Source: Flavobacterium sp. GSB-24
GTDB taxonomy: Bacteria > Bacteroidota > Bacteroidia > Flavobacteriales > Flavobacteriaceae
Assembly (NCBI RefSeq): GCF_027924665.1
Contig: NZ_AP027043.1
Location: 1,240,001 to 1,304,000, forward strand
DNA length: 64,000 nt
Direction of reading: 5' to 3'
The notes below the pieces were generated by a model that saw only the letters and a program-made list of their open reading frames with translations, had not been told where the DNA came from and made no database searches. Positions 38,688 through 54,560 of this stretch are shown piece by piece. Each line of letters begins with the position of its first letter. Positions within the stretch are counted from its first letter, which is position 1. The translations under genes and the position numbers were made by a program.

Positions 38688-39684
38688 AGCAAAAACAGAT
38701 TTAGCATTCATTATAGGTCCGTCATTTTTTGTGCTGGCCATAATCTTTATTTTTCAAGATTATATCACAAGAATTGAAGAGAATTATTCTTTTTATACTT
38801 GGCTTTTTTTAATTGTTTTTATTGATGTAGCACACGTTTATGCAACATTATTCAAAACCTATTTTGTTGCCGATGAATTCAAGAAACAAAAACAAAGATT
38901 GATTCTTTTACCGATTATTTGTTTTTTGACAGGAATTGTACTTTTTTCTTTTGGCAGTTTAGTTTTTTGGTCGTTTTTGGCTTATGTTGCTGTCTTTCAT
39001 TTTATCAGACAGCAGTATGGTTTTATGAGATTGTACGCCAGAAAAGAAACCAAAACTAAAATATCGGTTTGGATTGATAATCTGGCGATTTATGCTTCAA
39101 CCGGATACCCAATGTTGTATTGGTTTTTTTCGTCTAAGCGAAAGTTCAACTGGTTTGTAGAAAATGAATTTTTTAGGTTTGAAAGCCAAACAATCTTAGA
39201 AATCCTATTTTGGATTTATATCGGAATTTTGATTTTGTATGTCTTTTATACTGCCATAAAATCAATTCGAAATCAGTTTTTTAATATTCCGAAAAACAGC
39301 ATTATTCTTGGCACAGCACTTTCTTGGTATTTCGGAATTGTGTATTTTAATGACGATTTGATTTTTACTTTACTAAACGTCGTTTCGCATGGAATTCCTT
39401 ATATGGCACTGGTTTATTTTAAAGAAATTGACGGAAAATCAGATTCAGAATTAGGTCGTTTGTCTTTTTTAAAGCAATATAAAGGCATTCTAATTTACGT
39501 TGTTATTTTAGTTTTAATTGCCTTTTCAGAAGAATTTCTTTGGGAACTTTTTGTTTGGAATGAAAACATAAGTATAACCAATTTTGATTTTTCGAGCTGG
39601 CAGATTTTATTAGTTCCTTTGTTGAGCGTTCCACAGTTTACACATTATCTGTTGGATGGCTTTATCTGGAAATCTAAAAAATAA
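38665..39684 (+). CDS. Polytopic membrane protein of the polyamine-like operon
   Basis: 339 residues with about eight or nine hydrophobic helices and a conserved-looking YVAVFHFIRQQYGFMRLYARKE loop near residues 108-130. No family recognised. It overlaps the flavoprotein gene by 23 bases and is the last gene of the run; it may provide a membrane scaffold or transport step. Confidence 0.7.
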   Translation: MEQPWIHKAKTDLAFIIGPSFFVLAIIFIFQDYITRIEENYSFYTWLFLIVFIDVAHVYATLFKTYFVADEFKKQKQRLILLPIICFLTGIVLFSFGSLVFWSFLAYVAVFHFIRQQYGFMRLYARKETKTKISVWIDNLAIYASTGYPMLYWFFSSKRKFNWFVENEFFRFESQTILEILFWIYIGILILYVFYTAIKSIRNQFFNIPKNSIILGTALSWYFGIVYFNDDLIFTLLNVVSHGIPYMALVYFKEIDGKSDSELGRLSFLKQYKGILIYVVILVLIAFSEEFLWELFVWNENISITNFDFSSWQILLVPLLSVPQFTHYLLDGFIWKSKK

Positions 39685-39686
39685 AT

Positions 39687-40193
39687 CTAAAGCTTAATCT
39701 CAAACAAACTAAAAGAACCTTCTTTATAATGCTCTGGCAATTCATTGGTCCATTCTATGGTGCTGATTCCTTTGTAAGTGAAACCACAGCTGGTGTAATA
39801 TTTATTAATTCTTTCGTTACCGCTGTGGGTGTCAAGCCGAATGTAGTCTTTACCATTTTCTTTGGCATATTCTTTAGTCCATTGTATGATTTTTTTGACG
39901 TAAGAATGCCCTCTGAATTTTGAATTCGTAGCAATACGATGCAAATATACCGCAGGATCTTTGCTGGCTTCTTTCCAAATAATTTCATCATTAAAAGTAA
40001 GTACAAATGTACAAGCAACTTCATCTCCTTCTTTGATTACAAAATGACGATTTTCGGCAATTTCTTTTTCTATTAATGTCCTTTCAAAACCTCTCCAGCT
40101 TTTATTATTGACTGTTTTTTGATACGATGTAGCTTGATTGTAAATATCGAAAACAGCGTCGATATCTTGAGTTGTAGTTTTAAAAAATTCCAT
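39687..40193 (-). CDS. GNAT-family N-acetyltransferase
   Basis: 168 residues. The acetyl-CoA-binding motif A is visible as LHRIATNSKFRGHSYVKKIIQWTKEYAKENG (R/Q-x-x-G-x-G/A pattern, with GHS). Small acidic protein with no signal peptide. It converges on the polyamine-like operon, two bases from its stop, so no co-expression is implied. The acceptor is unknown. Confidence 0.85.
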   Translation of the reverse strand: MEFFKTTTQDIDAVFDIYNQATSYQKTVNNKSWRGFERTLIEKEIAENRHFVIKEGDEVACTFVLTFNDEIIWKEASKDPAVYLHRIATNSKFRGHSYVKKIIQWTKEYAKENGKDYIRLDTHSGNERINKYYTSCGFTYKGISTIEWTNELPEHYKEGSFSLFEIKL

Positions 40194-40265
40194 TATTGGG
40201 CTAATTCTGTAAATTAATGAATCTTCAAAGATAAATCTTTCAACAGCTTTATACGGGTGAAATGT

Positions 40266-41231
40266 TTAATTTATGCTTTTTTTATCAGGGTTTAACCAAA
40301 CGACATTTTGTTCAGAATTGTGATCTTGTCCAATAATATCTTTGTACAATTCTGGTCTTCTAGCTTTTATATAACGATTTCCTCCTGCTTGAATGCATTT
40401 TTCGGGAGTAATTATAGCAGTTGCAAAAGAATCATCAAAAGTTCTGCATTCTGCTAATATATCTCCAAACGGATCAATAATCATAGAACAGCCATTTTTG
40501 AGCTGGTCCTCATCCATACCAATCGGGTTTGAAAATATGGTATAAACCGCATTGTCATAAGCTCTTGCCGGAAGCCATTTCATAAGCCAGTCACGGCCTT
40601 TCATCCCATCAAATTCTAATCGTAACGATGTTGGATCAGCTTCTCGGTTTTCCCAAAGCTGCGGAGCAACAAAACCAGCGCCCGGTCGGGTAGAAGGTGT
40701 GCACATTGTTACATGAGGCATAAAAATAATATCGGCTCCTAGAAGCTTTGTGGCGCGGACATTTTCTATAATATTATTGTCGTAACAAATTAAGATACCG
40801 CATTTCCATCCTGCAATTTCAAAAACACAATAACGATCTCCAGCGGTTAAATATGGATTTATAAACGGATGTAATTTTCGGTATTTGGCCACTAAACCAT
40901 TTCTGTCAACACATACATATGCTTTGAATAAATTATCATTTTCATCTTTCTCAAAAAGCCCTGCCAATATTACAATGTTGTTGTTTTTAGCAATTTGAGT
41001 CAATTTTAAAATACTTTCGCCGCTCGGAATTAATTCTGCCAAGTCCAGCATTTGCTCTTTGGATAGATTTCTTGCGAATGTATATCCTGTTATTGAACAT
41101 TCGTGAAACGAAATTACATCGCAGCCTTCTTCAGATGCCTTTTTCGAAAGCTTTTCAATTACAGATAAATTATAGTTTTTATTGCCGCTTTTGTTTTCAA
41201 ATTGAGCTGTAGCTATTTTTAGATTTTTCAT
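40266..41231 (-). CDS. Nitrilase-superfamily carbon-nitrogen hydrolase
   Basis: The catalytic Glu-Lys-Cys triad is visible: SFHECSITGYTF (Glu), KYRKLHPF (Lys) and GILICYDNN (Cys). 321 residues from the ATG at 41229-41231 (MKNLKIATAQFE); a GTG three codons upstream is less likely. The superfamily cleaves amides or nitriles. It has nothing adjacent that indicates substrate. The AraC gene lies upstream on the same strand. Confidence 0.9.
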   Translation of the reverse strand: MKNLKIATAQFENKSGNKNYNLSVIEKLSKKASEEGCDVISFHECSITGYTFARNLSKEQMLDLAELIPSGESILKLTQIAKNNNIVILAGLFEKDENDNLFKAYVCVDRNGLVAKYRKLHPFINPYLTAGDRYCVFEIAGWKCGILICYDNNIIENVRATKLLGADIIFMPHVTMCTPSTRPGAGFVAPQLWENREADPTSLRLEFDGMKGRDWLMKWLPARAYDNAVYTIFSNPIGMDEDQLKNGCSMIIDPFGDILAECRTFDDSFATAIITPEKCIQAGGNRYIKARRPELYKDIIGQDHNSEQNVVWLNPDKKSIN

Positions 41232-41300
41232 ATTGTTCACTATTAATTAGGGTCAAAATTAGTGTGAGCAATACGTTATAAATTGTATAAAACCGACATT

Positions 41301-42155
41301 TTAGAATGTTGATGCGGGAAATCTTTTTATAAGATTGTTGGTTAGTTTTCCCGTGGTGCAGACATATTCTGTTGGAGTAATTCCGGTATGTTTTCTAAAT
41401 TCTTTTATTAAATGCGACTGATCTGAAAATCCTGCATTATAACAAATTGTGGTTAGATTGGTGTCGTCAGGTTTGTTTTTTAATAATTTCAAAAAATGAT
41501 GGATTCGTATAACATTCCCAAATTTCTTCGGATTTAATCCAATGCATTCTTTGAATTTTCTTTCCAAATGTCTTTCGGTATACCCAGTATATTTAACCAA
41601 TTCTTTTATAGAAAAGAGACCTTTTTTGTCAATGATAAAATTTAGGGAACCATTTATTAGGAACTGATTTGAAGACGGTTTAGAGGCAATGATTGATCTG
41701 AAGAAATGATTTAAAAGATTAACACGAGCCTGATTATTTTGTTCTAATAATTTTTCTTGGAGCTCAATAATTTTTTGGTCAAACACATCTTCTACCGGAA
41801 TAATAGAATCGTGAAATTCATGGGCAGGAATTCCTAATAATTGATGAATTCCGTTGGGTTGAAAAACGACAATTATTAATGTTATTTTATTCTCAGAATA
41901 TAGATCTTTAAAACCGTTAAGCTGTCCATACAAAAATGAAGCTGGTAAATAATCTTTTACTTCGCCGATTTCAGAAATGAGTTTACTTTTTACAGAAAAT
42001 ACAATACCAGTATTACCATCAGAAAACAAACGAAACTTTTGGACAGCAGTTTCTGCATTATCTAAAAACAGATAATGTTTGATATAAGGTGATAATTCTT
42101 TTGATGGCGAAACCTGCATAACTCTAATTGATTTGAATGCAAATTGAAATGTCAT
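41301..42155 (-). CDS. AraC-family transcriptional regulator
   Basis: 284 residues. The two HTH motifs of the AraC domain lie at the C-terminus (LFSIKELVKYTGYTERHLERKFKECIGLNPKKF and TNLTTICYNAGFSDQSHLIKEFRKHTGITPTEYV), preceded by an N-terminal sensing domain of unknown ligand. ATG at 42155; a second ATG 12 codons downstream is also possible. It may control the nitrilase gene 70 bases downstream. Confidence 0.9.
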   Translation of the reverse strand: MTFQFAFKSIRVMQVSPSKELSPYIKHYLFLDNAETAVQKFRLFSDGNTGIVFSVKSKLISEIGEVKDYLPASFLYGQLNGFKDLYSENKITLIIVVFQPNGIHQLLGIPAHEFHDSIIPVEDVFDQKIIELQEKLLEQNNQARVNLLNHFFRSIIASKPSSNQFLINGSLNFIIDKKGLFSIKELVKYTGYTERHLERKFKECIGLNPKKFGNVIRIHHFLKLLKNKPDDTNLTTICYNAGFSDQSHLIKEFRKHTGITPTEYVCTTGKLTNNLIKRFPASTF

Positions 42156-42215
42156 TTTGCAAGTAATTATGAGTTTAGCAAAATTAGGGATATTTTTCTT
42201 GAAAAACTTTTAGTA

Positions 42216-42297
42216 TCTAATCTAGCCCCGATAGAAACGATATCCTTTTGCGGCGGGGTTCGCCGCAAAAGATATAGTGAATAGCGGGACTAAAGGT
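42216..42297 (+). repeat. Structured 82-bp interspersed repeat, copy 2
   Basis: Second copy of the element at 33334-33415, same orientation relative to the window. The core hairpin TTTTGCGGCG-GGGTT-CGCCGCAAAA is perfectly paired in this copy. Located between the AraC and SGNH-hydrolase genes, on the strand opposite to both. Confidence 0.85.
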
Positions 42298-42336
42298 GTA
42301 ATGAAAATGAATTTTCTGCTTCTGGAAATAAAAATA

Positions 42337-43092
42337 TTAATTCTGCAAAGCTTTTTTTACCTCCGGCATCATTTTGTCCACAAATAATTTATAGGCTGAT
42401 TCTGAAGGGTGTAAACCATCTGAAGCAACAAGATTGGCACTGTTGAGTCCTTGTCGTGTAATGTCTGTAATGGAAACAAAAGCCACTTGATTATTGGCAC
42501 AATATTTCTCGGCAAAAGAATTGTATTGGTCAATTTCGGCAGAAATCGTTGAGGTTTGATCACCGGCGAGACTTTTTCCGTAAGGCGTGTAAGCATAATC
42601 TGGAATGGAAATGACGACAACATTTTTTCGGTCACCTTTGGCAAGCATGATTGCTTTGGTTACCAATTCTGGAAATTCTTTTTCGTAAACCGAAAAATTT
42701 CTGTGTTGATATTGATTGTTTACACCAATTAAAAGCGTCACCAAATCGTAATTGGCTTCTGGATTTTGTGTGTTTATTGCTGAAAGTAAATTGGATGTTG
42801 TCCAGCCTGTTGTAGCAATTATTTTTAGCGAAATTGTACTGGAATACATCGCGTTTAAACTGGTCTTTAATTGTTCTGGAAAACGACATGTAGCACAAAC
42901 ACTCTGCCCGATTGTGTAACTGTCGCCTAATGCTAAATAATTGATCGAACTAGCAATTGGTGGCTCTGGGGTTTTGGGAGGGGTTACAACTGGCGGTGTA
43001 GTTGTGATAGGAGCAGATTCTTCTGATGAGCTGCAGCTCATCAGAAATACTGAAAGTATAATGGTAACTATTTGTTTAAAATATGGTTTCAT
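42337..43092 (-). CDS. SGNH/GDSL-family hydrolase lipoprotein
   Basis: 252 residues from the ATG at 43090-43092. A lipoprotein signal (TIILSVFLMSCSSSEE) and a Pro/Thr-rich linker are followed by the SGNH domain: LALGDSYTIGQS (catalytic Ser), LIGVNNQY (Asn) and the Asp-His pair in VASDGLHPSESAYKLF. It is an esterase or lipase-like hydrolase exported to the cell envelope. The longer frame would begin at TTG in poor context. Confidence 0.9.
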   Translation of the reverse strand: MKPYFKQIVTIILSVFLMSCSSSEESAPITTTPPVVTPPKTPEPPIASSINYLALGDSYTIGQSVCATCRFPEQLKTSLNAMYSSTISLKIIATTGWTTSNLLSAINTQNPEANYDLVTLLIGVNNQYQHRNFSVYEKEFPELVTKAIMLAKGDRKNVVVISIPDYAYTPYGKSLAGDQTSTISAEIDQYNSFAEKYCANNQVAFVSITDITRQGLNSANLVASDGLHPSESAYKLFVDKMMPEVKKALQN

Positions 43093-43163
43093 AATTTGTT
43101 TAAATTTAAATCTTGAGGTCGTTTTAAACAAATAGTTACGTTAAATATGCGGGTTTGGATTTA

Positions 43164-43946
43164 TTAAACCATTTCGGTTTTCATCACAATATCTTCTTCG
43201 ATTGCATTCCAAAGTCCGATACGTCTTTCTAGGGCTAGAATAGAAACTTCTTCTACTTCTTTCCATTTTTGAGCATCATCTTCGCATAATTCTGTAATCA
43301 TTTGCATGGCCATTGGTCCGTGTTCGTCGGCATCCAATTCGATATGTCTTTCAAAATAGTAAAGCAATTTTGTCAAATCGACTTCTGGAAGATTCTTTTG
43401 GAAATTTTTTAGGATTTCGGTAAACATACTCGGAATCAAATCTTCTCTTCCAAAAGTAAATGCAGCGGCAATTTGGTGTGGTTTTCCTTCTTCAATAACT
43501 CTGAAAGTAAAATCTAAGAAAGCTTTCACATTCGGGTGAAGCTGACTTTGTTTAATAGCAACAAATATATTGTGAAGCGAACTTACTTCTGATAGGAAAT
43601 TTAAAATACCAGTTGTGTCAGCGCCACAAGCTTCCATTGCTTCCAAATACATTTCGTAGTGACTTTGTCTTCTTCCGTCAAGCGTTAAATCTGTTTCTTC
43701 GGCAAGAACAATTTCATTAATTAAATAACGAGTTTCTGGATTTTTAGTAGCAAACCAAGGCGTTGTTGTGCAGGTAAGTTTGGCTTGTAAAGCTTTCAAT
43801 AACGACATAAAATCCCAAACAGCAAAAACATGACTTTCTAAAAAACTATGTAAGTCATCTATGTTCTGAATCTTATTATATAAAGAATGTTTTAACAGTT
43901 GGTCTTTTTGTGGTTGTATGCTTTTGTTTATTGCTTCAATATTCAT
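43164..43946 (-). CDS. DUF3050 family protein (heme-oxygenase-like fold)
   Basis: 260 residues, helical, with the DUF3050 pattern HSFLESHVFAVWDFMSLLKALQ and LVLAEETDLT-like segments; YFERHIELDADEHGPMA supplies acidic and His residues of the heme-oxygenase-like fold, possibly for metal binding. No signal peptide. It begins 92 bases downstream of the acyl-CoA dehydrogenase gene behind a terminator, so it is probably separately transcribed. Confidence 0.88.
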   Translation of the reverse strand: MNIEAINKSIQPQKDQLLKHSLYNKIQNIDDLHSFLESHVFAVWDFMSLLKALQAKLTCTTTPWFATKNPETRYLINEIVLAEETDLTLDGRRQSHYEMYLEAMEACGADTTGILNFLSEVSSLHNIFVAIKQSQLHPNVKAFLDFTFRVIEEGKPHQIAAAFTFGREDLIPSMFTEILKNFQKNLPEVDLTKLLYYFERHIELDADEHGPMAMQMITELCEDDAQKWKEVEEVSILALERRIGLWNAIEEDIVMKTEMV

Positions 43947-43973
43947 TTTTGGAAAAAATTTTGGTGCAAAGAT

Positions 43974-44003
43974 AAAAAGCTTCTTTGTTAGAAGAAGCTT
44001 TTT
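43974..44003 (-). terminator. Terminator of the acyl-CoA dehydrogenase gene
   Basis: AAAAAGCTTCTT and AAGAAGCTTTTT pair over 12 bases with a 6-base loop. On the minus strand it lies 35 bases after the acyl-CoA dehydrogenase stop. Confidence 0.8.
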
Positions 44004-44037
44004 AAATCGATTTTGTATATATTTTAATAGTTGTCTA

Positions 44038-45216
44038 CTATTTAAATGCTGGAATTCCAGTCACATCCATTCCAGTTATTAGTAAATGGATGTCATGAGT
44101 TCCTTCATAAGTAATTACACTTTCAAGATTCATCATGTGACGCATAATAGAGTATTCACCAGTGATTCCCATACCTCCAAGCATTTGTCTAGCTTCTCTT
44201 GCAATGGTAATTGCCATGTTAACATTATTACGTTTTGCCATCGAAATTTGTGCTGTAGTAGCTTTTCCTTCATTTCTTAAAACACCTAAACGCCAGGTTA
44301 ATAATTGCGCTTTTGTGATTTCAGTAATCATTTCGGCTAATTTCTTTTGCTGTAATTGAGTACCTCCAATTGGTTTTCCAAACTGAATTCTTTCTTTAGA
44401 ATATCTTAATGCCGTATCGTAACAGTCCATCGCTGCTCCGATTGCTCCCCAGGCAATTCCGTAACGAGCTGAATCTAAACAGCCAAGTGGAGCTCCTAAA
44501 CCAGATTTATTAGGTAAAAGATTTTCTTTAGGAACTTTTACGTTATCAAAAATCAACTCTCCAGTTGCAGATGCACGAAGCGACCATTTATTATGCGTTT
44601 CTGGAGTTGTAAAACCTTCCATTCCTCGTTCTACAATTAAACCATGAATTCTTCCTTCTTCATTTTTTGCCCAAACAATAGCAATATCAGCAAAAGGCGC
44701 ATTTGAGATCCACATTTTGGCACCATTTAAAAGATAATGATCTCCCATGTCTTTAAAATTGGTAATCATACTTCCAGGATCAGAACCGTGATCTGGTTCG
44801 GTCAAACCAAAACATCCTATAAATTCACCAGTTGCTAGCTTCGGAAGGTATTTCATTCGCTGTTCTTCATTACCATATTTCCAAATAGGATACATTACTA
44901 AAGAAGATTGAACAGATGAGGTAGATCTTACGCCAGAATCGCCTCTTTCAATTTCCTGCATGATTAAGCCGTAAGAGATTTGATCTAATCCCGCTCCGCC
45001 ATATTCTACAGGAATATAAGGTCCGAAACCGCCAATTTCTCCAAGTCCTTTAATAATTTGTTTAGGAAATTCTGCTTTTTGAGCATATTCTTCTATTATA
45101 GGAGAAACTTCCTTTTTTACCCATGCTCGAGCAGATTCTCGAACCAATTTATGTTCGTCGGTTAGTAAATCATCTAGGTTATAATAATCTGGAGATTGAA
45201 ATAAGTCTGGTTTCAT
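44038..45216 (-). CDS. Acyl-CoA dehydrogenase, glutaryl-CoA-dehydrogenase-like
   Basis: 392 residues. Typical FAD enzyme: GCFGLTEPDHGSDPGSM in the middle domain, SLRASATGELIFDNVKVP, and the catalytic Glu in ESVITYEGTHDIHLL near the C-terminus, as in GcdH. The position of that Glu and the short N-terminal ALL-helical part point to the GcdH group, which oxidises glutaryl-CoA in lysine/tryptophan breakdown; exact substrate not certain. ATG at 45216. Confidence 0.88.
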   Translation of the reverse strand: MKPDLFQSPDYYNLDDLLTDEHKLVRESARAWVKKEVSPIIEEYAQKAEFPKQIIKGLGEIGGFGPYIPVEYGGAGLDQISYGLIMQEIERGDSGVRSTSSVQSSLVMYPIWKYGNEEQRMKYLPKLATGEFIGCFGLTEPDHGSDPGSMITNFKDMGDHYLLNGAKMWISNAPFADIAIVWAKNEEGRIHGLIVERGMEGFTTPETHNKWSLRASATGELIFDNVKVPKENLLPNKSGLGAPLGCLDSARYGIAWGAIGAAMDCYDTALRYSKERIQFGKPIGGTQLQQKKLAEMITEITKAQLLTWRLGVLRNEGKATTAQISMAKRNNVNMAITIAREARQMLGGMGITGEYSIMRHMMNLESVITYEGTHDIHLLITGMDVTGIPAFK

Positions 45217-45381
45217 GTTTTTTAATTTTACTTAAACAAATTTACGTAATAAAAATATAACAAATAACGCTTAAATTGTTATATTTTTTTAAGGCAAAAA
45301 TAAAATTAATAGGAATTTGGCAAATTAATTGTAGTTTATTGATAATTTATAGACTATTTTTGAATACCAAAAACTAATTAA

Positions 45382-47157
45382 ATGAGGCTGATCATCTCTT
45401 TTTTATTTTTATTGATACTTAATACTACTGTGGCTCAACCTAAAAAAGAGCTTACTGAACAAGAGTATTTAGAATTGCAGGATAAAATTCGTTTCAGCAT
45501 GAACGGTAATTTTGATGAAGGACTTAAGTATGCTGCTGAATTACAAAAATCTAGTAATAATGAACATTTAGCTTTTGCTTATGGATCAGGATCTTATTTA
45601 TATCAACTAAAGAACAATAGAGCTAAGTGTGATGAATGGTATAAAAAAGCACTAGAATATTATAATAGAATTCCCGAATCTGTTCAAAAAATAAATCTTC
45701 GCGCCTACTTATATAATTATAGAGGATTAACGGAATGGAAAAGAAAAAATTTCAGTAATGCTTTAAGTAATTACCAGGAAGGAATAAAACTTTCTACCAA
45801 AACATTGGATGTTATACAGATCGTTAAGTTTAAAAGCAATATAGCTTTAGTTAATGAAGAAGTAGGGAATTATGAACTTGCTATTAGAAATCTAAGGCAG
45901 AATAGTATTTTTTTAGATAAAAATGAAAGTCTATACGAAAAAGATCAATTTCAAAATAGTAAAAGTAATATTTATACCAATTTAGGAAATGTCTATGAAG
46001 GCTATTTCATGAAAGCTCGAGGTAAATTATTTTTATTAGATTCTGCCGAATACTTTTATAAAAGAGCAATCAATTATTCGCAAAATTATTTAGACAATAA
46101 AATTACTTCTACTCTTAGTTTAGGAAATATTTATCTATACAAAAAAGATTTTAAAAATGCAGAAAGAACCTACTTCGATATTTCGATGTATGCTAAGCAA
46201 AATAATGATGATTATTATTATAGGATTGCAAATTATAATTTAGGAGACCTTTATCATTCATTAAAAAATTATGATAAAGCTTTGGTATTTTTAAAGAAGG
46301 TTGATTCTATGTCTGTTAAAGAAAAAAAAACAGATAGAATTTCTTTTCAGTCCAATTATCTTCAGGCTAAAATTTATAGTGCAAAAAATGAACCCGAATT
46401 AGCTTTCAAATATTCTAAAATGTATTTAGATTCTTATGAAAAGTACGAAGGAGAATTAAGAGAAGAAGCTTTAGAAGTCAATTACAAACTGGGTACGGCG
46501 AATCTTAGCGATGAGATGATAAGCATTCAGGAAAAGTATAAGTACGAGGTTTTATGGAATAAAGCCCTTAAAGTTTTATATGTTATTCTAGTTGTTGGAA
46601 TTGTGTTTTTCCTAATTAAAAATATTCGGGACAAAAATAAAGCACAGAAAAAAATGAATGCTTTAATTGAAGAATTTAAAGCTAATCTGGAGAAAAAAGA
46701 AATTGAAAAAGCTGAAATCGAAAAAGCAGCTGCAGAACAAAATATACTTGTTGAAACTCCAGAACTAGAAGATACATTACTTAAAAAGGAAAATGCAAAC
46801 CTTAGTATTGATGAAGCTAAAGAAAATAAAATTGTAGAAAAATTATTGGCACTAGAAGAAAAATTAGAATACCTAAATCCTGATTTTACATTGTCTTATG
46901 TTGCCAAAAAAATCAAAACTAATACAACTTATTTGTCTTATGTTGTAAATAAACGATTTGGTAAATCTTTTGGAGAATATTCTAATGAGTTAAAAATTAA
47001 TTATGTTATTAATCAAATGATTACAAACCACTTATATCGTAAATATTCAACACAGGCAATTGCAGAAAGTGTTGGGTTTAAGAATGCGGTTTCATTTGCA
47101 AAATCGTTTCGCAAAAGAACTGGAGTATCTCCAGCTCAATTTGCGAACAATATTTAA
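45382..47157 (+). CDS. TPR sensor with AraC-type HTH, membrane-anchored
   Basis: 591 residues. A signal peptide (MRLIISFLFLLILNTTVA) is followed by about 350 residues of TPR repeats (GNYELAIRNLRQN; KDFKNAERTYFDIS; KNYDKALVFLKKV), one TM helix at about 397-415 (VLYVILVVGIVFFLI), a coiled coil, and a C-terminal AraC HTH (TLSYVAKKIKTNTTYLSYVVNKRFGKSFGEYSNELK ... YSTQAIAESVGFKNAVSFAKSFRKRTGVSPAQF). The layout puts TPRs outside the cytoplasm and the HTH inside, a one-protein signal-transduction device common in flavobacteria. It converges on the tandem GG-leader peptide genes, with their first stop 11 bases away. Confidence 0.85.
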   Translation: MRLIISFLFLLILNTTVAQPKKELTEQEYLELQDKIRFSMNGNFDEGLKYAAELQKSSNNEHLAFAYGSGSYLYQLKNNRAKCDEWYKKALEYYNRIPESVQKINLRAYLYNYRGLTEWKRKNFSNALSNYQEGIKLSTKTLDVIQIVKFKSNIALVNEEVGNYELAIRNLRQNSIFLDKNESLYEKDQFQNSKSNIYTNLGNVYEGYFMKARGKLFLLDSAEYFYKRAINYSQNYLDNKITSTLSLGNIYLYKKDFKNAERTYFDISMYAKQNNDDYYYRIANYNLGDLYHSLKNYDKALVFLKKVDSMSVKEKKTDRISFQSNYLQAKIYSAKNEPELAFKYSKMYLDSYEKYEGELREEALEVNYKLGTANLSDEMISIQEKYKYEVLWNKALKVLYVILVVGIVFFLIKNIRDKNKAQKKMNALIEEFKANLEKKEIEKAEIEKAAAEQNILVETPELEDTLLKKENANLSIDEAKENKIVEKLLALEEKLEYLNPDFTLSYVAKKIKTNTTYLSYVVNKRFGKSFGEYSNELKINYVINQMITNHLYRKYSTQAIAESVGFKNAVSFAKSFRKRTGVSPAQFANNI

Positions 47158-47167
47158 AGCTGTACTA

Positions 47168-47314
47168 TTAACCATTTCCGTTTCCTCCAGTACCTTTAGC
47201 AGGATTGTTTTTTGGATCAACATCTTCTCCATCACCGCCTCGGATAATTTTTTGAGCTTCTTTATTTATTTTTTCTAATTGAAAGTCTTCAAATGTCAAT
47301 TTTATATTTTTCAT
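47168..47314 (-). CDS. GG-leader peptide A of tandem set (48 residues)
   Basis: Too short for standard gene calling. ATG at 47312-47314. Leader MKNIKLTFEDFQLEKINKEA followed by QKIIRGG (double-glycine site at residues 26-27), then a core rich in Asp and Asn and the tail PAKGTGGNGNG. No Cys or Ser; a single Thr. The four-member family conserves the leader and the KGTGGNGNG tail, and the cognate exporter is probably the C39 ABC transporter at 51073. Function unknown: signal, toxin or inhibitor. Confidence 0.8.
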   Translation of the reverse strand: MKNIKLTFEDFQLEKINKEAQKIIRGGDGEDVDPKNNPAKGTGGNGNG

Positions 47315-47357
47315 GTCGTATGTTTTTTAATTATTATTTACACTATTATAAATGAGA

Positions 47358-47504
47358 TTAACCATTTCCGTTTCCTCCAGTACCTTTAGCTGGATTGTTC
47401 TGCGGATCGACATCTTCTCCATCACCGCCTTTTATAACTTTTTGAGCTTCTTTATTTATTTTTTCTAATTGAAAATCTTTAATTGCCAATTTTATATTTT
47501 TCAT
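47358..47504 (-). CDS. GG-leader peptide B of tandem set (48 residues)
   Basis: ATG at 47502-47504. Leader MKNIKLAIKDFQLEKINKEA, then QKVIKGG and a core with GEDVDPQNNPAKG and the shared tail. Differs from peptide A at a handful of positions, mostly in the leader. 43 bases separate it from peptide A. Confidence 0.8.
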   Translation of the reverse strand: MKNIKLAIKDFQLEKINKEAQKVIKGGDGEDVDPQNNPAKGTGGNGNG

Positions 47505-47548
47505 GTCGTATGTTTTTTAATTATTATTTACACTATTATAAATGAGAG

Positions 47549-47695
47549 TTAACCATTTCCGTTTCCTCCAGTACCTTTAGCTGGATTGTTCTGCGGATCC
47601 ACAGATTCTCCATCACCGCCTTTTATAACTTTTTGTGCTTCTGTGCTTATTTTTTCTATTTCAAAATCTTTGATTTTCAGTGAATTATTTTTCAT
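47549..47695 (-). CDS. GG-leader peptide C of tandem set (48 residues)
   Basis: ATG at 47693-47695. Leader begins MKNNSLKIKDFEIEKISTEA and continues QKVIKGG; the core GESVDPQNNPAKG ends in the conserved tail. More diverged in the leader than A and B but same length. The GG site and tail are conserved, which is evidence of selection on the protein. Confidence 0.8.
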   Translation of the reverse strand: MKNNSLKIKDFEIEKISTEAQKVIKGGDGESVDPQNNPAKGTGGNGNG

Positions 47696-47758
47696 GTTTC
47701 TTTTTTTTTGGATTGCTTTTTATACTATTTACTATGTGTTTTAATTTTGTAGAAAGAA

Positions 47759-47917
47759 TTAACCATTTCCGTTTCCTCCAGTACCTTTTACAGGATTGTT
47801 TGTGTCAGTAGGTGGTGGTGTTTGGCTGTCATTACCTCCGCCTTTAATAGCTTGCTGTTGTTGTTTAGAAATTGTTTCTGTTTCAAAATTTTCTAATGTG
47901 AATGCTGAATTTTTCAT
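47759..47917 (-). CDS. GG-leader peptide D of tandem set (52 residues)
   Basis: ATG at 47915-47917. Leader MKNSAFTLENFETETISKQ continues with a Gln run and AIKGG (GG at 26-27), then GGNDSQTPPPTDTNNPVKG and the shared tail. The core has four more residues than the others and a Pro-Thr-rich insert. It is the first gene of the set in the direction of transcription. Confidence 0.78.
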   Translation of the reverse strand: MKNSAFTLENFETETISKQQQQAIKGGGNDSQTPPPTDTNNPVKGTGGNGNG

Positions 47918-48503
47918 GTCTTTTAATTTTTTTTGGATTTAAATTTAATACGATTAATCTTTCATAAAATTTTTAAGCAATTTTGTCATATTGCGATGAA
48001 AAAGCGCTAAAAATTGGTTTACGTTAAGAATTTTGGGTTGTTATTTTACTTAAAAAAAGCAATAAAATTGAACTTTATTTATAAGTTAAATCTTGTCAAA
48101 TTATTTTTAAGCATTGCTTTTTTGGGGGGATTTTTGCTGCGAATTTGAGGTTGATTTTAGACTTTTTTTGAGTCATTTTAATCTCTTCTATTTTGTTTTT
48201 TCTTCTTCAAAACCATTCGATTTTGATACCATGTTTTTCATGTTTTTCGGTATTTAGATTATTGCTTTTCCAAAACTAGGCAAAAAGTAAAGCCGTTAAT
48301 CGAAAATAGCCTTTCTGAGCTTTTTATACTAGATAATCAATCATAATATATTGTTTTACAGTAATTTATGTTGTGTACTATACTTGGTATAATTTATAAA
48401 TTGTATGTGGTATAATTAATAAATTGTATATATGCATGCGATTTTTATCAATAAAAACTACAATATTTGCAGTGTAATTATGATTTAAAAACGATCAAAA
48501 GCG
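47918..48503. other. 586-bp divergent intergenic region of the peptide locus
   Basis: No full gene is seen. It must hold promoters for the tandem peptides (leftward) and the VKOR operon (rightward). It contains a short leader-like relic frame (48188-48241, minus strand), and near the right end two direct repeats (48386-48429). A TAnnTTTG-like AATATTTG near 48462 is a weak candidate for the rightward -7 box. Confidence 0.6.
48386..48429 (+). promoter_or_regulatory. Direct repeat, possible activator site
   Basis: GGTATAATTTATAAATTGTAT (48386-48406; 21 bases, one difference from the copy at 48409-48429) repeated with a 23-bp period, about two helical turns. It lies some 33-76 bases upstream of the candidate -7 box of the VKOR operon. 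Confidence 0.5.
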
Positions 48504-50060
48504 ATGTTGAAACTGGTCCAAAAATTTCTACAAATTAATCGATACTCAGATATAAAAAATGAGTTCAAGGATCTGTTTTTGTCTCATCCCAATTATCCGA
48601 GTTTATTTGCGATTACAGATTCATTCGATTTGCTTTCTGTAGAGAATGCAGCAGTAAGAGTTTCGAAAGAGCAAATTGTAGATTTACCGTCTAATTTTTT
48701 GGCGTATTTTAAAGATGAATTGATATTGGTTGAAAAGACTAAAAGTGGTGTTCGAATTACGACTAACAAAAAAGGAACTCAAAAGTTATCTTATGATAAA
48801 TTTCTTTTGGACTGGAATGGAGTAATTGTTGCTATTGAGCCAAATAATGTAGTTTCGAGAGATAATTTAAAAGTAGAATATAATTGGTTAAAATATTTTC
48901 TGCCTCTTGCCCTTCTTACAGGATTATCTTTTTTCTATAACGGCTTTGATTTATTTAGTACTATTTTTTTAGTAACATCAATATTGGGTTTAATCGTGAG
49001 CATATTTATTGTTCAGGAGAAATGGGGTGTTAAAAACACTGTAATTTCAAAATTTTGTAATTTAAGTTCTAACTCTTCTTGTCACTCAGTAATTAGTTTT
49101 AATGACGATATAGCAAATAGATGGTTGAGTTTTTCAGATTTACCATTGCTTTTCTTTAGTTCAAGCATTATTGCAATTTTGGTACAGCCATTGAGTTCAG
49201 CAGTTTTTGTTGGGTTTTTAAGTCTGTTGGCAATTCCAGTAGTAGTTTGTTCTATTTGGATTCAGAAATTTGAAATTCAAAAATGGTGTGTTATGTGTTT
49301 AGCAGTATCATTTTTAATTGTAGTTCAAAGTGTTTTATGGTTTTCATCAGACCTATTTACATTGAGCTTTAGTTTAAGTGCTATTTTTCCTTATGTATTT
49401 TCTTTATTGCTTTTAATCCCGATTTGGGCAACAGTTAAAGTGATGATTAGAAAAATGCTTGATAATGAAAGTTCATTAAAAGAACTTAAAAAGTTCAAAA
49501 GAAATTATTCTTTATTAAACTTCTTGTCTAAGAAAGTAAAATACACAAAAGGATTTGAAGATTTAAGAGGGTTGAACTTTGGAAATAAAAATGCAGCCGT
49601 AAAGCTTTCTATTATACTAAGCCCAAGCTGCGGACACTGTTATAAAACTTTTCAGGAAGCTTTTGATTTAGTATTGAAGTTTCCAGATAAAATATATTTG
49701 AACGTTCTTTTTAATATTAATCCAGAAAACAACGACAATCCTTATAAGGCAGTTGTTGAAAGACTTTTAACTATTAATAGAACAACGCCTGGAAAAACAG
49801 TAGAGGCAATTTCTGATTGGTACATTAAGAGAATGGTTCATAAAAAATGGCTTAAAAAATGGCCTGTTGAGTCAGTGAGTATGATGATTAGTCAGGAAAT
49901 TCAAAAACAATATGATTGGTGTTCAATGAATAATTTTAATTACACACCAGTTAAAATTGTAAACGAAAGGTTATTTCCAAATGAATATGAGCTGAATGAG
50001 TTAAAATACTTCTTGAACGATTTTGTCGATGAAGTTCAAATTTTAGAAAAAACAGCATAA
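48504..50060 (+). CDS. VKOR-thioredoxin fusion with degenerate C39-like N-terminus
   Basis: 518 residues. The first 115 residues resemble a C39 peptidase fold (HPNYPSLFAITDSFDLL ... LSYDKFLLDWNGVIVAIEPNN) but lack the catalytic Cys and His. About four or five TM helices of a VKOR domain follow, with redox Cys in SNSSCHSV and KWCVMCLAV (CxxC). A soluble thioredoxin-like domain with SPSCGHCYKTF (CGHC) at about residues 372-380 ends the protein. VKOR oxidises a Trx-like partner using quinone and so makes disulfides. It heads a run with three Cys-containing peptide genes and the C39 exporter. I infer it oxidises the exported peptides; the inactive C39-like part may bind their leaders. Confidence 0.88.
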   Translation: MLKLVQKFLQINRYSDIKNEFKDLFLSHPNYPSLFAITDSFDLLSVENAAVRVSKEQIVDLPSNFLAYFKDELILVEKTKSGVRITTNKKGTQKLSYDKFLLDWNGVIVAIEPNNVVSRDNLKVEYNWLKYFLPLALLTGLSFFYNGFDLFSTIFLVTSILGLIVSIFIVQEKWGVKNTVISKFCNLSSNSSCHSVISFNDDIANRWLSFSDLPLLFFSSSIIAILVQPLSSAVFVGFLSLLAIPVVVCSIWIQKFEIQKWCVMCLAVSFLIVVQSVLWFSSDLFTLSFSLSAIFPYVFSLLLLIPIWATVKVMIRKMLDNESSLKELKKFKRNYSLLNFLSKKVKYTKGFEDLRGLNFGNKNAAVKLSIILSPSCGHCYKTFQEAFDLVLKFPDKIYLNVLFNINPENNDNPYKAVVERLLTINRTTPGKTVEAISDWYIKRMVHKKWLKKWPVESVSMMISQEIQKQYDWCSMNNFNYTPVKIVNERLFPNEYELNELKYFLNDFVDEVQILEKTA

Positions 50061-50118
50061 AGTGAAAACAGAATTTAAACTGTTTAAATAGAAATAATAA
50101 CCCCTAAAACCTGCAGTT

Positions 50119-50301
50119 ATGTTAAAGAATATTTTGAAGTTGAAAGGTGCAGTAGAATTATCTGCTAATGAGCAAAAAACAATAAACGGAAGTAACGCTC
50201 CTATTTGTGATGACGGATTTAAAGCTAAAAGATGTACAGAATTTGGAACAGTATCATCATATTGGGATTGTGTGCCAAATAATTATGTCGGAAGCTGTTA
50301 A
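50119..50301 (+). CDS. GG-leader-type Cys peptide 1 (60 residues)
   Basis: ATG at 50119. Leader MLKNILKLKGAVELSANEQK followed by TINGS, a double-glycine-type site (G-S). The predicted core NAPICDDGFKAKRC ... SYWDCVPNNYVGSC has four Cys, which could form two disulfides. The leader family (MLKxILxL-x-EQK-xI) recurs in the next two genes. It starts 58 bases after the VKOR gene. Confidence 0.8.
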   Translation: MLKNILKLKGAVELSANEQKTINGSNAPICDDGFKAKRCTEFGTVSSYWDCVPNNYVGSC

Positions 50302-50369
50302 GGAAATTTTTAAGCATCAAGTTTTTTACAGATTTGAGGCTTATACCCAGAAAACGTAAATAACCAATT

Positions 50370-50504
50370 ATGTTAGAAAAGATTTTAAAAAGTAAAGAAA
50401 CTAAAAAGCTGACAAAAAAAGAGCAGAAAAACATTTTGGCAGGTGAATATGCACTAGAACCAAATTGTAATAATCCTGCTGACGAAAAATATTATGCTTG
50501 CTAA
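50370..50504 (+). CDS. GG-leader-type Cys peptide 2 (44 residues)
   Basis: ATG at 50370, too short for usual gene callers. Leader MLEKILKSKETKKLTKKEQK then NILAG (A-G site) and a 19-residue core EYALEPNCNNPADEKYYAC with two Cys. The same leader pattern as peptides 1 and 3 shows it is real. Spacing of 68 bases after peptide 1. Confidence 0.75.
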   Translation: MLEKILKSKETKKLTKKEQKNILAGEYALEPNCNNPADEKYYAC

Positions 50505-50517
50505 TTTGAATATTTAA

Positions 50518-50550
50518 ATAGTAACAGAGACCAAAAAACTCTGTTACTAT
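50518..50550 (+). terminator. 12-bp perfect hairpin between peptide genes 2 and 3
   Basis: ATAGTAACAGAG pairs perfectly with CTCTGTTACTAT around a 9-base loop (ACCAAAAAA). No T run follows, so it is more likely an RNA-stability, attenuation or processing hairpin than a strong terminator. Peptide 3 begins 18 bases later. Confidence 0.55.
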
Positions 50551-50567
50551 TAAAAATGAGATTAAAG

Positions 50568-50759
50568 ATGTTAAAGAAAATTTTAAATCTGAACGGTGCT
50601 CAAAGTATTAATAAAAATGAGCAGAAAACCATGAGAGGAGGAATTCCTGAGTGCTGGATTTATGCCTTAGAAGCTGGATGCATTTTAATTTCATCAGACG
50701 AAACTTGTCCTTTAAATACCACATCAGGTATTTGCGATACAAGTCGTCTTTGTTGTTGA
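50568..50759 (+). CDS. GG-leader Cys-rich peptide 3 (63 residues)
   Basis: ATG at 50568 (MLKKILNLNGAQSINKNEQK then TMRGG); an upstream ATG at 50556 would add four residues and lose the family pattern. The core IPECWIYALEAGCILISSD ... CDTSRLCC has six Cys, including a terminal CC pair. It is the longest of the three and the most likely to be strongly disulfide-bonded. Confidence 0.8.
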   Translation: MLKKILNLNGAQSINKNEQKTMRGGIPECWIYALEAGCILISSDETCPLNTTSGICDTSRLCC

Positions 50760-50900
50760 TTTTTTTAACTTTTTTAGAAGTAATACGATATAGCCTTATT
50801 TAGAATTTAGTCATGTTTTTTTTGAATGTATAGGCGCTCGATCGTGGAACATTGAGCAAATTCTCAGTATTGATGATTGGTACTGGGATTCTTAGGAGTT

Positions 50901-50942
50901 GGCCGCTGTGTTAATTTTAATTGGTTAGGGTAAACCGCGGCC
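50901..50942 (+). ncRNA. Possible structured RNA element
   Basis: GGCCGC closes on GCGGCC; inside are a TTAATTTTAA palindrome and GGTT-AGGGTA-AACC. Taken together this could be a three-way junction. Low confidence; it might instead be a decayed peptide gene. Confidence 0.3.
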
Positions 50943-50990
50943 ATGTCCTAAAGAAATTGTGTTACTGGTAATTTTGTTTTTAAATACCCA

Positions 50991-51023
50991 AACAGAGAAG
51001 ATTTATATCTTCTCTGTTTTTTT
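50991..51023 (+). terminator. Rho-independent terminator before the ABC exporter
   Basis: AACAGAGAAGAT (50991-51002) pairs with ATCTTCTCTGTT (51007-51018), 12 perfect base pairs with a 4-base loop and a T run. It probably ends the VKOR-peptide transcript, so the exporter may have its own promoter or lie under attenuation. Confidence 0.85.
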
Positions 51024-51072
51024 ATGGATTAACAAGAATTTTTTTTCTTAAATTGGCCTTGAATAAATCAAA

Positions 51073-53271
51073 TTGAAATTGAAAAAATTCACTCATTACA
51101 GACAAGCCGATCATAAAGATTGCGGGCCGACATGTTTAAAGATAATAGCTAAATATTACGGTAAGACAATCAATATTCAGGAGTTGAGAGATTTTAGCGA
51201 AACAACTCGTGAAGGAAGTAATTTGCTTTTTTTGAGTGATGCTGCCGAGAAAATCGGTTTTAGGACTTTAGGGGTTAAATTGTCTGTAAAGAGAATAGAG
51301 GAAGCTCCGCTGCCATGTATTCTGCATTGGAATAAAGATCATTATGTTGTTCTTTACAAAATAAAAAAAGGTAAATACTATATATCCGATCCCGCTTTTG
51401 GACTTTTAGAATATAACAAAGAAGATTTTGTTAAGTTCTGGATTGGTAATAATGCAGGCGATGAGACGAAGGAAGGAATTGCATTACTGATCGAAGCGAC
51501 ACCAAACTTTTTTCAATCTGATTTTGACAAAGAAGAAAATTCCGGTTTAGGATTTAAATTTCTTTTTAAATATTTATTTCAATACAAATCATTTCTTATA
51601 CAGCTTGCAATTGGACTTGTAGCCAGCAGTCTGCTGCAGCTTATTTTTCCATTTTTAACCCAGAGTATAGTCGACGTCGGGATTCAGAATCAGAACATTC
51701 ATTTTATCTATTTAATTCTTTTTGCAATGCTTTTTATTTTTGCAGGAAGAACTGGTTTGGAGTTAATTAGAAGCTGGATTTTACTTCATTTATCAACGAG
51801 AATCAATATTTCGTTAATTTCAGATTTCTTTATTAAATTAATGAATCTGCCTATTTCCTATTTTGATGTCCGCATGACAGGAGATATTATGCAGCGAATA
51901 AACGATCACCGCCGTATCGAGAGAATACTTACCACATCCTCTCTTAATGTGCTGTTTTCTGTAATAAATATGTTTATAATGGGAGCGGTTTTAGCCTATT
52001 TCAATCTGCAGATATTCCTAGTTTTCTTTTTAGGAAGCGTGCTCTATTTTGCATGGATAACAATGTTCCTAAAAAGAAGAGAAGTTTTAGATTATAAACG
52101 TTTTGCAGAAGTTTCAAACGAACAGAGTAAAGTAATGGAGCTGATAAACGGCATGCAGGAAATAAAGCTTCATAATGCCGAAAAACAAAAACGCTGGGGC
52201 TGGGAGTATGTGCAGGCAAGACTTTTTAGGGTTTCAATAAAAGGCTTGGTTTTAGAACAGGCACAAACGATCGGTTCGTCGGTTATCAATGAGCTTAAAA
52301 ACATTTTTATAATTCTTCTTTCTGCAAAACTTGTAATTGATGGATCCATTACATTAGGGATGATGCTCGCGATAAGCGCCATTGTTGGAAATTTAAATGG
52401 CCCAATTACTCAGTTAATAGAATTTGTTAGAGAATTGCAGGATGCTAAAATTTCACTTGCCAGATTATCCGAGATTCATCAAAAAGAAGATGAACTGCAG
52501 CAGGAAGTGCACCAGACAACTGAAGTGCCGAATGATGTTGATATTGAGATTAAAAATCTTTCGTATCGTTATTTAGGTTCAGATATTCCAGTATTGGATA
52601 ATTTAAGTTTAATCATCCCGGCCAATAAAGTAACTGCAATTGTGGGTGTCAGCGGAAGCGGTAAAACAACCCTGATGAAACTGCTTTTGAAATTTTACGA
52701 ACCCGAAAAAGGAGAGGTTTTAATTGGAAATGCACAGCTTAAAAATATATCTCAAAAAGCCTGGAGGTCAAATATTGGTGCTGTAATGCAGGAAGGCTTT
52801 ATTTTTAGTGATACAATTGCAAATAATATTGCTTTTGGAGTAGACAGGATTGATAAAGAAAGATTAATCTACGCTTCAGATGTGGCAAATATTAAAGAAT
52901 ACATCAGCAGTCTGCCGTTGGGTTTTAATACTAAAATAGGAGCGGAAGGTATTGGAATGAGTACAGGCCAGAAGCAGCGACTTCTTATTGCCAGAGCTGT
53001 TTATAAAAACCCAGAAATACTTTTCTTTGATGAGGCTACTTCTGCATTAGATGCCAATAATGAGAAAGAAATAATGAAAAAATTAGATATTTTTTTCAAA
53101 AATAAAACGGTAATCGTAATTGCGCATCGATTGAGTACTGTTATGAATGCAGATCAGATTGTGGTTTTAGATAAAGGAAAAATTATCGAAATCGGAAGTC
53201 ATTCAGCATTAGTAGAACAGAAGGGAAATTATTTTGAACTGGTTAGAAATCAACTGCAATTAGGAAATTAA
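51073..53271 (+). CDS. C39-peptidase ABC transporter (peptide processing and export)
   Basis: 732 residues. N-terminal C39 peptidase: KDCGPTCLKIIAKYYGK (catalytic Cys), DHYVVLYKI (His) and YYISDPAFGLLEYN (Asp). Then a six-helix TM domain, then the ATPase domain with Walker A GVSGSGKTTLMKLL, signature MSTGQKQRL, Walker B ILFFDEATSALD and the His loop IAHRLST. This family cleaves double-glycine leaders and exports the core through the inner membrane. Start is a TTG at 51073 (another TTG lies two codons later), since no ATG fits. The likely substrates are the peptides encoded at 50119-50759 and perhaps those at 47168-47917. Confidence 0.94.
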   Translation: MKLKKFTHYRQADHKDCGPTCLKIIAKYYGKTINIQELRDFSETTREGSNLLFLSDAAEKIGFRTLGVKLSVKRIEEAPLPCILHWNKDHYVVLYKIKKGKYYISDPAFGLLEYNKEDFVKFWIGNNAGDETKEGIALLIEATPNFFQSDFDKEENSGLGFKFLFKYLFQYKSFLIQLAIGLVASSLLQLIFPFLTQSIVDVGIQNQNIHFIYLILFAMLFIFAGRTGLELIRSWILLHLSTRINISLISDFFIKLMNLPISYFDVRMTGDIMQRINDHRRIERILTTSSLNVLFSVINMFIMGAVLAYFNLQIFLVFFLGSVLYFAWITMFLKRREVLDYKRFAEVSNEQSKVMELINGMQEIKLHNAEKQKRWGWEYVQARLFRVSIKGLVLEQAQTIGSSVINELKNIFIILLSAKLVIDGSITLGMMLAISAIVGNLNGPITQLIEFVRELQDAKISLARLSEIHQKEDELQQEVHQTTEVPNDVDIEIKNLSYRYLGSDIPVLDNLSLIIPANKVTAIVGVSGSGKTTLMKLLLKFYEPEKGEVLIGNAQLKNISQKAWRSNIGAVMQEGFIFSDTIANNIAFGVDRIDKERLIYASDVANIKEYISSLPLGFNTKIGAEGIGMSTGQKQRLLIARAVYKNPEILFFDEATSALDANNEKEIMKKLDIFFKNKTVIVIAHRLSTVMNADQIVVLDKGKIIEIGSHSALVEQKGNYFELVRNQLQLGN

Positions 53272-53273
53272 TC

Positions 53274-54560
53274 ATGGCTGAAGATACATTTGAGTTAAGA
53301 AGCGAAGAAGTTCAGGATATCCTGACCAAAGTACCGCATTGGATGATCCGATGGGGAACAGTGCTGATATTTGCCATAATTGTAATGCTGTTTTTTGTTT
53401 CCTGGTTTGTCAAATATCCAGATGTTGTGCATACCGAAATCGTAATTACCACTAATATTCCTCCTGAGAGAATTGTTTCGAAATCTTCTGGTCGTATTGA
53501 GGCAATTTTGGTAAAAAACAAAACTTTGGTTCCTAAAAACAGCACACTGGCCATCATTGAAAATACCGCTGACTACAAGGATGTTTTTTTATTAAAAAGC
53601 ATTGTAGACAGCTATGATATTAATGCTAAAAAAGTATTTCCGTTTGCGATGCTGAAAAATAAACAGCTAGGTGAAATAGAAAGTGCCTTTGCTGTTTTTC
53701 AGAAAGATTATCAGGCTCAGGAATTAAACGAAAATCTGCATCCTTTTGAAATTGAAAGCAGGGCGCAGAGCTCAGAGAAAATCCAGATCAAAGAAAGACT
53801 GGATATTCTCCAGCAGCAAAAGGTAATTAATGAAAGTGAACTGGAACTGCAGAAAAATGAAATAGCGCGTTTTGAAGTTTTATTCAATAAAGGAATTATT
53901 TCTGCTCAGGAAATGGAATTGAAGAAACTGGGTTATCTTCAGGCAATGAAGAGTTATAAAAGCCTTTTAACCTCGATTTCCCAATTAAGGTCCTCTTTGA
54001 TCGACAATACAAAATCGAGCCAAAATTCGCACATAAACAGCACAAAAGAGGAGGTTAATCTTGGAAGGAGTATGGCGCAGTCATTTTATCAGCTGAAAAA
54101 AGTGATAAAAGACTGGGAACTGGCTTATACATTAAAATCTTCTGTAAGCGGGGTTGTTACTTTTCTGCAGGTTTGGAACGAAAATCAGACTATAAATGTG
54201 GGGGATAATGTTTTCTCTATAATTCCAGATGCTAAAAACAGTTTTGTTGGAAAAGTAAAAGCTCCCGCTCTGAATTCAGGAAAAATAAAAGTAGGGCAGA
54301 GAGTCAATATTCGTCTGGCCAATTATCCTGATAGAGAGTTTGGTGTATTGAAAGGTGAAATCAAAAATATTTCGTTAGTGCCCGATAAAGATGGAAACTT
54401 ATTGCTGGACGTCGCACTTCCTAACGGCTTAAAAACATCTTATAATAAACAAATTATCTTCCAGCAGGAAATGAAAGGAAGTGCCGAAATTGTGACAGAA
54501 GATTTACGATTAATTGAAAGAATCTTGTATCAATTTAAAAGTATATTTGAACAAGTTTAG
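53274..54560 (+). CDS. HlyD-family secretion adaptor protein
   Basis: 428 residues, one N-terminal TM helix (about 25-46: WGTVLIFAIIVMLFFVSWF), a split lipoyl-like part (RIEAILVKNKTLVPKNSTLAII) enclosing a long coiled coil (about residues 130-270), and a C-terminal barrel (VNIRLANYPDREFGVLKGEIKNISLVPDKDGN). It is the membrane fusion partner of the C39 exporter, starting three bases after its stop. A TolC partner must come from elsewhere, possibly the one at 6658. Confidence 0.9.
   Translation: MAEDTFELRSEEVQDILTKVPHWMIRWGTVLIFAIIVMLFFVSWFVKYPDVVHTEIVITTNIPPERIVSKSSGRIEAILVKNKTLVPKNSTLAIIENTADYKDVFLLKSIVDSYDINAKKVFPFAMLKNKQLGEIESAFAVFQKDYQAQELNENLHPFEIESRAQSSEKIQIKERLDILQQQKVINESELELQKNEIARFEVLFNKGIISAQEMELKKLGYLQAMKSYKSLLTSISQLRSSLIDNTKSSQNSHINSTKEEVNLGRSMAQSFYQLKKVIKDWELAYTLKSSVSGVVTFLQVWNENQTINVGDNVFSIIPDAKNSFVGKVKAPALNSGKIKVGQRVNIRLANYPDREFGVLKGEIKNISLVPDKDGNLLLDVALPNGLKTSYNKQIIFQQEMKGSAEIVTEDLRLIERILYQFKSIFEQV

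Follow-up and report, generated by a model that had tools for sequence, protein, structure and literature searches.

The four tandem GG-leader peptides of the window, which is the whole stretch of 64,000 nucleotides of Flavobacterium sp. GSB-24 that was analysed, are probably precursors of a species-specific peptide pheromone sensed by REG, a periplasmic TPR one-component regulator. The computation showed four features of the system: the pairing of the genes, the constraint on the peptide tail within a genome, a fast-changing sensor joined to a constant HTH, and the conservation and spacing of the operator. The functional unit is larger than the four peptides. It includes REG as a constant partner gene and an operator, both of which were missed by the original prediction.

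Peptide array and its partner gene

The genes of the array and the gene convergent with it are as follows.

45382..47157, plus strand: REG, 591 aa, proposed receptor, convergent with the peptide array
47168..47314, minus strand: peptide precursor 1, 48 aa, GG at residues 26-27, C-terminal KGTGGNGNG
47358..47504, minus strand: peptide precursor 2, 48 aa, GG at residues 26-27, C-terminal KGTGGNGNG
47549..47695, minus strand: peptide precursor 3, 48 aa, GG at residues 26-27, C-terminal KGTGGNGNG
47759..47917, minus strand: peptide precursor 4, 52 aa, GG at residues 26-27, C-terminal KGTGGNGNG

All four tandem open reading frames were present on the minus strand as originally described, with the MKN start, the GG and the common end, and a search of the own genome (5.35 Mb) at E values up to 10 gave these four ORFs only. 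The mature part is short, first acidic and then Gly/Asn-rich, without a hydrophobic or Cys-rich stretch. The peptides had been described as free of Cys and Ser; Cys is indeed absent from all four copies, but Ser is present in copies 3 and 4, also after the GG. The window peptides scored under the cut-off of every NCBIfam and Pfam family, in accordance with the statement that no named family has this tail.

The 27 nt coding for KGTGGNGNG are identical across the four copies. Selection on the protein had been read from the window, which alone cannot show it because recent homogenisation would also yield four identical 27-nt tails. The relatives do show it, as the codon comparison revealed synonymous differences at shared tail residues in L044, L045, L051, L064 and L008. 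The orthologous frames are open, free of the frameshifts and stops that had been considered, and the tails of relatives are homologous and not lost. The reading of the window peptides as GG-leader peptides under protein-level selection is supported. The tail is not invariant as had been stated, since in the wider family it varies and is mostly particular to each species.

Co-occurrence of the peptides and REG

A profile of the four peptides was searched at E values up to 0.1 against 199 relatives, 121 of them of the same genus. It matched 34 relatives, of which 30 belong to the genus and four to other families (E 0.019-0.092); the four weak matches were treated as chance. REG was found at E values up to 1e-60 in 33 of the 199 relatives, all of the same genus, with 38 genes. 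Every same-genus genome with a peptide match carries REG (30/30), and no peptide match was obtained in the same-genus genomes without REG (0/88). Three REG genomes gave no peptide match (G038, G061 and G090), one had its match on another contig (G098) and one had a weak match beside REG (G011); inspection of these five showed a convergent leader-type ORF adjoining each REG. Such a small ORF stands next to 36 of the 38 REG genes and carries GG in 34 cases, CG in L144 and GKG in the second gene of L069. The two REG genes without an adjacent peptide each come first in a tandem pair of REG genes, in L061 and L062, and each pair has a single convergent peptide in common (L061, 5734-9268; L062, 5752-9294).

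An even draw of 395 genomes from the order contained REG-like genes at E values up to 1e-70 in 18 genomes. The newly found same-genus REG genes all had a convergent peptide (12/12), including L184 with a broken REG. In L184 REG is split over two frames while five peptide copies are still open, with the tail KGTGKGAN in the REG-proximal copy and KGTGKGSN in the remaining four. Five genomes outside the genus have REG relatives of 26-28% identity. Among these, the convergent peptides are clear in L169 and L170, where they contain GGGGTNNGNGSG and KGTNNGSGNG, L172 has a plausible one, and L171 and L173 have weak candidates only.

The regions of REG paralogues in the own genome were judged by eye, and four of the five have no adjoining leader peptide of the REG-array kind. 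At L081 (4110-6183; G000:C1, about 1923109-1925182) a REG paralogue with 30% identity over 196 aa is followed directly downstream, on the same strand, by a small GGG-containing leader-type ORF, with more GG peptides and a C39 ABC gene (33%) close by. This locus is perhaps a second system of the same sort.

Intergenic region and divergent export operon

The features of the intergenic region and of the divergent VKOR/C39 export operon are listed below.

48271..48303, minus strand: conserved peptide-side element, predicted array promoter, holding TAGTTTTG on the minus strand
48388..48430, no strand assigned: double direct repeat, predicted REG operator, half-sites 48388-48407 and 48411-48430
48461..48469, plus strand: -7-like element CAATATTTG for the VKOR operon, with its TTTG 38 nt 3' of the 40-nt site
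48504..50060, plus strand: first operon gene, encoding a VKOR protein in which C39-like and thioredoxin-like parts are weakly recognisable
50119..50301, plus strand: leader-type peptide with Cys, having GS as its cleavage position
50370..50504, plus strand: Cys-containing leader-type peptide
50556..50759, plus strand: Cys-rich GG-leader peptide, kept by the majority of the relatives seen
51073..53271, plus strand: ABC exporter with C39 peptidase domain
53274..54560, plus strand: HlyD-family adaptor

The sequence TATAATTTATAAATTGTATGTGGTATAATTAATAAATTGT is located between the array and the VKOR operon. With at most one mismatch, the half-site occurs in the own genome only at the two listed positions, 23 bp apart. 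With up to three mismatches it gave 48 matches against 33 for the control, and a REG regulon beyond the locus is not claimed. The double site (up to three mismatches) was found once per genome in 23 of the 199 genomes and never with the control; all 23 have REG, and the other 10 REG genomes lack a double site at this threshold. It is present in 32 of 37 intergenic regions. The five regions without it belong to the remote loci L067-L070, and in three of them a pair of loose half-sites occurs at a distance of 22-23 bp.

The spacing around the double site is constant. A -7-like TTTG lies 38 nt 3' of it in 32 of 32 regions, 30 of them found by script; for L056 and L063 the script gave an earlier TTTG, and the one at 38 is visible in the printed sequence. 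The peptide-side element is also present in all 32 double-site loci, 84 bp upstream of the site in 30 and 83 bp in two, and its TAGTTTTG fits TAnnTTTG, which we take to be the -7 motif of Bacteroidetes. A later check of site and spacings covered L175-L184 and L060 only. Among the ten further loci L175-L184, the 83-84 and 38 spacings were kept in all eight near ones, whereas remote L182 has no double site and remote L183 has a 4-mismatch site without the peptide-side element; L060 has a 4-mismatch double site with both spacings kept. All 40 near loci examined (40/40) have a gap of 83-84 bp from the peptide-side element to the operator, at 48304-48387 in the window. This corresponds to roughly eight helical turns and is a hint of a face-of-helix or looping constraint.

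The Cys peptides of one locus differ among themselves, unlike the array peptides with their near-identical tails. At the position where the L014, L057, L063 and L064 homologues have GG, the peptide at 50119-50301 has GS instead, and it may therefore be processed poorly. L072 (7186-11241, genome G103) contains a distinct array made up of 13 GG-leader peptides, with the leader MKKLKLKNLKV and, in most copies, a SGPYxSWCHGC-like end. A defence system was considered and rejected: PADLOC gave six matches, all to the ABC exporter, and no match was obtained with REG, with the VKOR protein or with either of the peptides tested.

Tails within and between genomes

The tail statistics were calculated for 30 loci with 109 peptides, 25 of the loci being multi-copy, and within-locus p-distances were computed without self-pairs. 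The five most remote REGs (L067, L068, L069 and two of L070) were left out of this set. L005, which is nearly identical to the window, was kept in the p-distance and VKOR-matched comparisons and omitted from the pN/pS, TPR-column and Mantel tests. The genomes of L005-L014 may overlap the remaining set, so that the loci are not all independent. The REG divergence and first tail-distance tables excluded L046 (same contig as L008), L071 and L072 (no such REG), L012 and L014 (REG past the contig end) and L060 (peptide missed by the first filter and found later).

The mean p-distance of the tail was 0.097 within loci versus 0.49 between loci, while that of the leader was 0.231 versus 0.477 and that of the mature part 0.18 versus 0.545. 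The codon comparison of 105 precursors gave within-locus pN/pS values of 0.16 for the tail, 0.37 for the leader and 0.34 for the middle. The corresponding between-locus values were 0.55, 0.57 and 0.56, with pS of 0.50-0.61, near saturation. Inside a genome, then, no part is as constrained as the tail, which varies between genomes as freely as the other parts.

The longest strings common to all copies of a locus were 24 different ones in 25 loci, a count that exaggerates the variety because neighbouring loci have tails in common. Inspection by eye gives about 16 types of uniform tail, plus two loci, L053 and L058, in which the copies differ. The tail KGTGGNGNG is found in the window and L005, KTNGGGNG in four loci, KGNGNG in three and KKTGGNGN in two; single-locus tails include KGSGNGSG, KKGGGGNGNN, KGNGGNGST, RGTGSGNG, RSAGGGNN and others. 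Some copies in L044, L051, L052, L055, L063, L065 and L066 extend beyond the shared core, which is therefore not necessarily C-terminal. The remote homologues L067, L068, L171 and L173 have tails unlike that of the window, which, like the differing copies of L053 and L058, counts against the pheromone reading.

Architecture and divergence of REG

REG consists of an N-terminal hydrophobic segment, a TPR domain (about 20-355), a TM segment near 394-413 and an AraC-type HTH (508-589). The AF2 model, built from 8 sequences, was confident for residues 21-310 (block pLDDT 81-97), fair up to residue 350 (74-86) and poor further on (28-57), so that the TM and HTH part lies outside the usable model. 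The top PDB matches of the TPR model in Foldseek were LGN TPR domains complexed with peptides (E 3.1e-9), and RapI, which we take to be a peptide-pheromone receptor of Bacillus, appeared at rank 30 (E 1.1e-6). The matches of the sequence search with REG include LGN (GPSM2) and YesN-type HTHs.

Divergence was measured in 20-residue blocks over 28 REGs more than 60% identical to that of the window. The mean pairwise identity was 0.50-0.77 in the blocks up to residue 380 and 0.95-1.0 from residue 481 to the end, which is the HTH part. An unchanging HTH and operator next to a changing sensor and peptide is the pattern expected of a pheromone receptor. Residues 441-460 (46702-46761 in the window), in the cytoplasmic linker from the TM segment to the near-invariant HTH, are hypervariable with a mean identity of 0.35.

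Relation of tail to sensor

Locus pairs with a VKOR distance below 0.12 were compared. The mean TPR distance was 0.089 where the tails agree (10 pairs, VKOR 0.051), 0.202 at intermediate tail distance (26 pairs, VKOR 0.076) and 0.264 where the tails differ (121 pairs, VKOR 0.079). Partial Mantel tests of tail against TPR, given one at a time the seven neighbour genes for GDSL, HlyD, ABC, DUF3050 protein, VKOR, acyl-CoA dehydrogenase and second AraC, gave r of 0.29-0.40 (p 0.0005-0.0045, n 15-29), these tests leaving some phylogeny in the signal and the second AraC gene being a poor control (n 15, a mixture of orthologues and paralogues). In the reverse test, of tail against gene given TPR, r was about zero or negative for four of the seven genes and positive for ABC (0.20, p 0.006), second AraC (0.22, p 0.065) and acyl-CoA dehydrogenase (0.10, p 0.086). 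The leader distance likewise tracks the TPR distance, so linkage may account for part of the tail-TPR signal. The pair L047 and L054 counts against the coupling of tail and sensor, with a tail distance of 0.778 and a TPR difference of just 3.5%.

A residue-level test of 277 variable TPR columns against the tails revealed no column that stands out, the best partial r being 0.27, and coevolution at this level is not claimed. The top 25 columns, with 11 in A helices, 7 in B helices and 7 in loops, showed no clear helix preference.

Proposed mechanism and alternatives

According to the proposed mechanism, the precursors would be cut behind the GG and leave the cell through the locus's own C39 ABC transporter and HlyD protein. 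The released peptide would bind the TPR domain of REG in the periplasm, with the Gly/Asn-rich tail as the specificity part, and the signal would cross the single TM segment of REG to the cytoplasmic AraC-type HTH. The HTH would bind the double repeat at 48388-48430 and activate the divergently transcribed VKOR/C39 genes and probably the array too. We infer processing, export by the local C39 transporter, binding and activation from what known families do, and infer also the direction of the signal. The multiple copies would provide dosage of one signal; the tails within a genome are proposed to stay alike because all must fit one receptor, and between species tail and sensor would change together.

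The tandem peptides could instead be secreted antimicrobial, bacteriocin-like effectors, with REG sensing envelope stress, a competitor or another cue and the tails diversifying against targets or immunity. Such effectors would suit the GG leaders and the several peptide copies per genome, as well as the C39 exporter and the Cys-rich bacteriocin-like peptides that the locus also encodes. This explanation is unlikely, however, as the mature part in the window has the short, acidic and then Gly/Asn-rich composition described above, with no stretch of the hydrophobic or Cys-rich kind. The array peptides pair with REG rather than being scattered among the peptides of the export operon, and their tails track the REG sensor. 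The copies of one genome also have nearly the same tail, in contrast to the mutually different Cys peptides of these loci.

The same peptide-REG pairing and sensor-tail covariation, and the one predicted operator common to array and export operon, would also be seen if the peptide bound REG inside its own cell as an inhibitor, a chaperone-like partner or a gauge of C39 export capacity, with no cell-to-cell signal. This appears rather improbable, since species-specific tails that are uniform within genomes suit specificity between cells better, and an export gauge has no need of a changing tail. A post-translationally modified RiPP as the product of the peptide genes is very improbable and was rejected, because the leader similarity to TIGR04149, TIGR04194, NF033471 and PF14406 reached only 12.7-14.4 bits under curated cut-offs of 23-33, the window copies contain no Cys, and the Pfam scan of the 13 larger proteins at 35564-54560 found no lanthipeptide, graspetide or rSAM enzyme, in line with the original remark that the peptides are not lanthipeptide-like.

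Significance

With the pheromone reading preferred, we lean towards peptide quorum sensing of a new class with an old history in Flavobacteriales, in which an exported GG-leader pheromone acts on a one-component transmembrane TPR-AraC receptor. Such a class would have species-specific pherotypes and uniform multi-copy arrays, together with a two-way promoter, rigid in its spacings of 83-84 bp and 38 nt, that switches on the signal and a bacteriocin-like export operon jointly. Peptide quorum sensing is classically Gram-positive, and we know of no established pair of peptide pheromone and receptor in Bacteroidota. In silico surveys of Gram-negative GG-leader peptides exist; a published account of such a Bacteroidota system was not found in the open-access literature, which omits most subscription papers and preprints. 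The predicted signal, receptor, operator and target operon lie within one 10-kb locus in dozens of species, and the natural variants of tail and sensor form a specificity panel. If true, the proposal would give a role to one clade of TPR-AraC regulators in Bacteroidota.

Comparison with known systems

The Bacteroidetes RiPP precursors of TIGR04149/PF14406 are like the window peptides in leader length and in an acidic leader ending in GG. The peptides differ from them in scoring 12.7-14.4 bits against a cut-off of 25 and in having no rSAM/SPASM partner among the 13 larger neighbouring proteins scanned.

GG-leader pheromones of the ComC, BlpC and plantaricin A type control bacteriocin or competence loci in Gram-positives. 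Shared with them are the short GG-leader precursor, a C39 ABC exporter in the locus (which would export these peptides), the linkage to a bacteriocin-like export operon and tails differing by species. The histidine kinase and response regulator of that type are absent here among the 13 larger proteins at 35564-54560 (Pfam). The proposed receptor is instead a one-component TPR-TM-AraC protein, the signal is encoded by a multi-copy array and the host is Gram-negative.

The RRNPP family comprises Rap, NprR, PlcR, Rgg and PrgX, which are cytoplasmic, the DNA-binding members having an N-terminal XRE-type HTH. REG shares with it the TPR domain, which is the peptide sensor in RRNPP and is predicted to bind a ligand in REG, and RapI is among the fold matches. 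REG differs by its hydrophobic N-terminus, TM segment and C-terminal AraC-type HTH, so that sensing by REG would be periplasmic and not post-import as in RRNPP.
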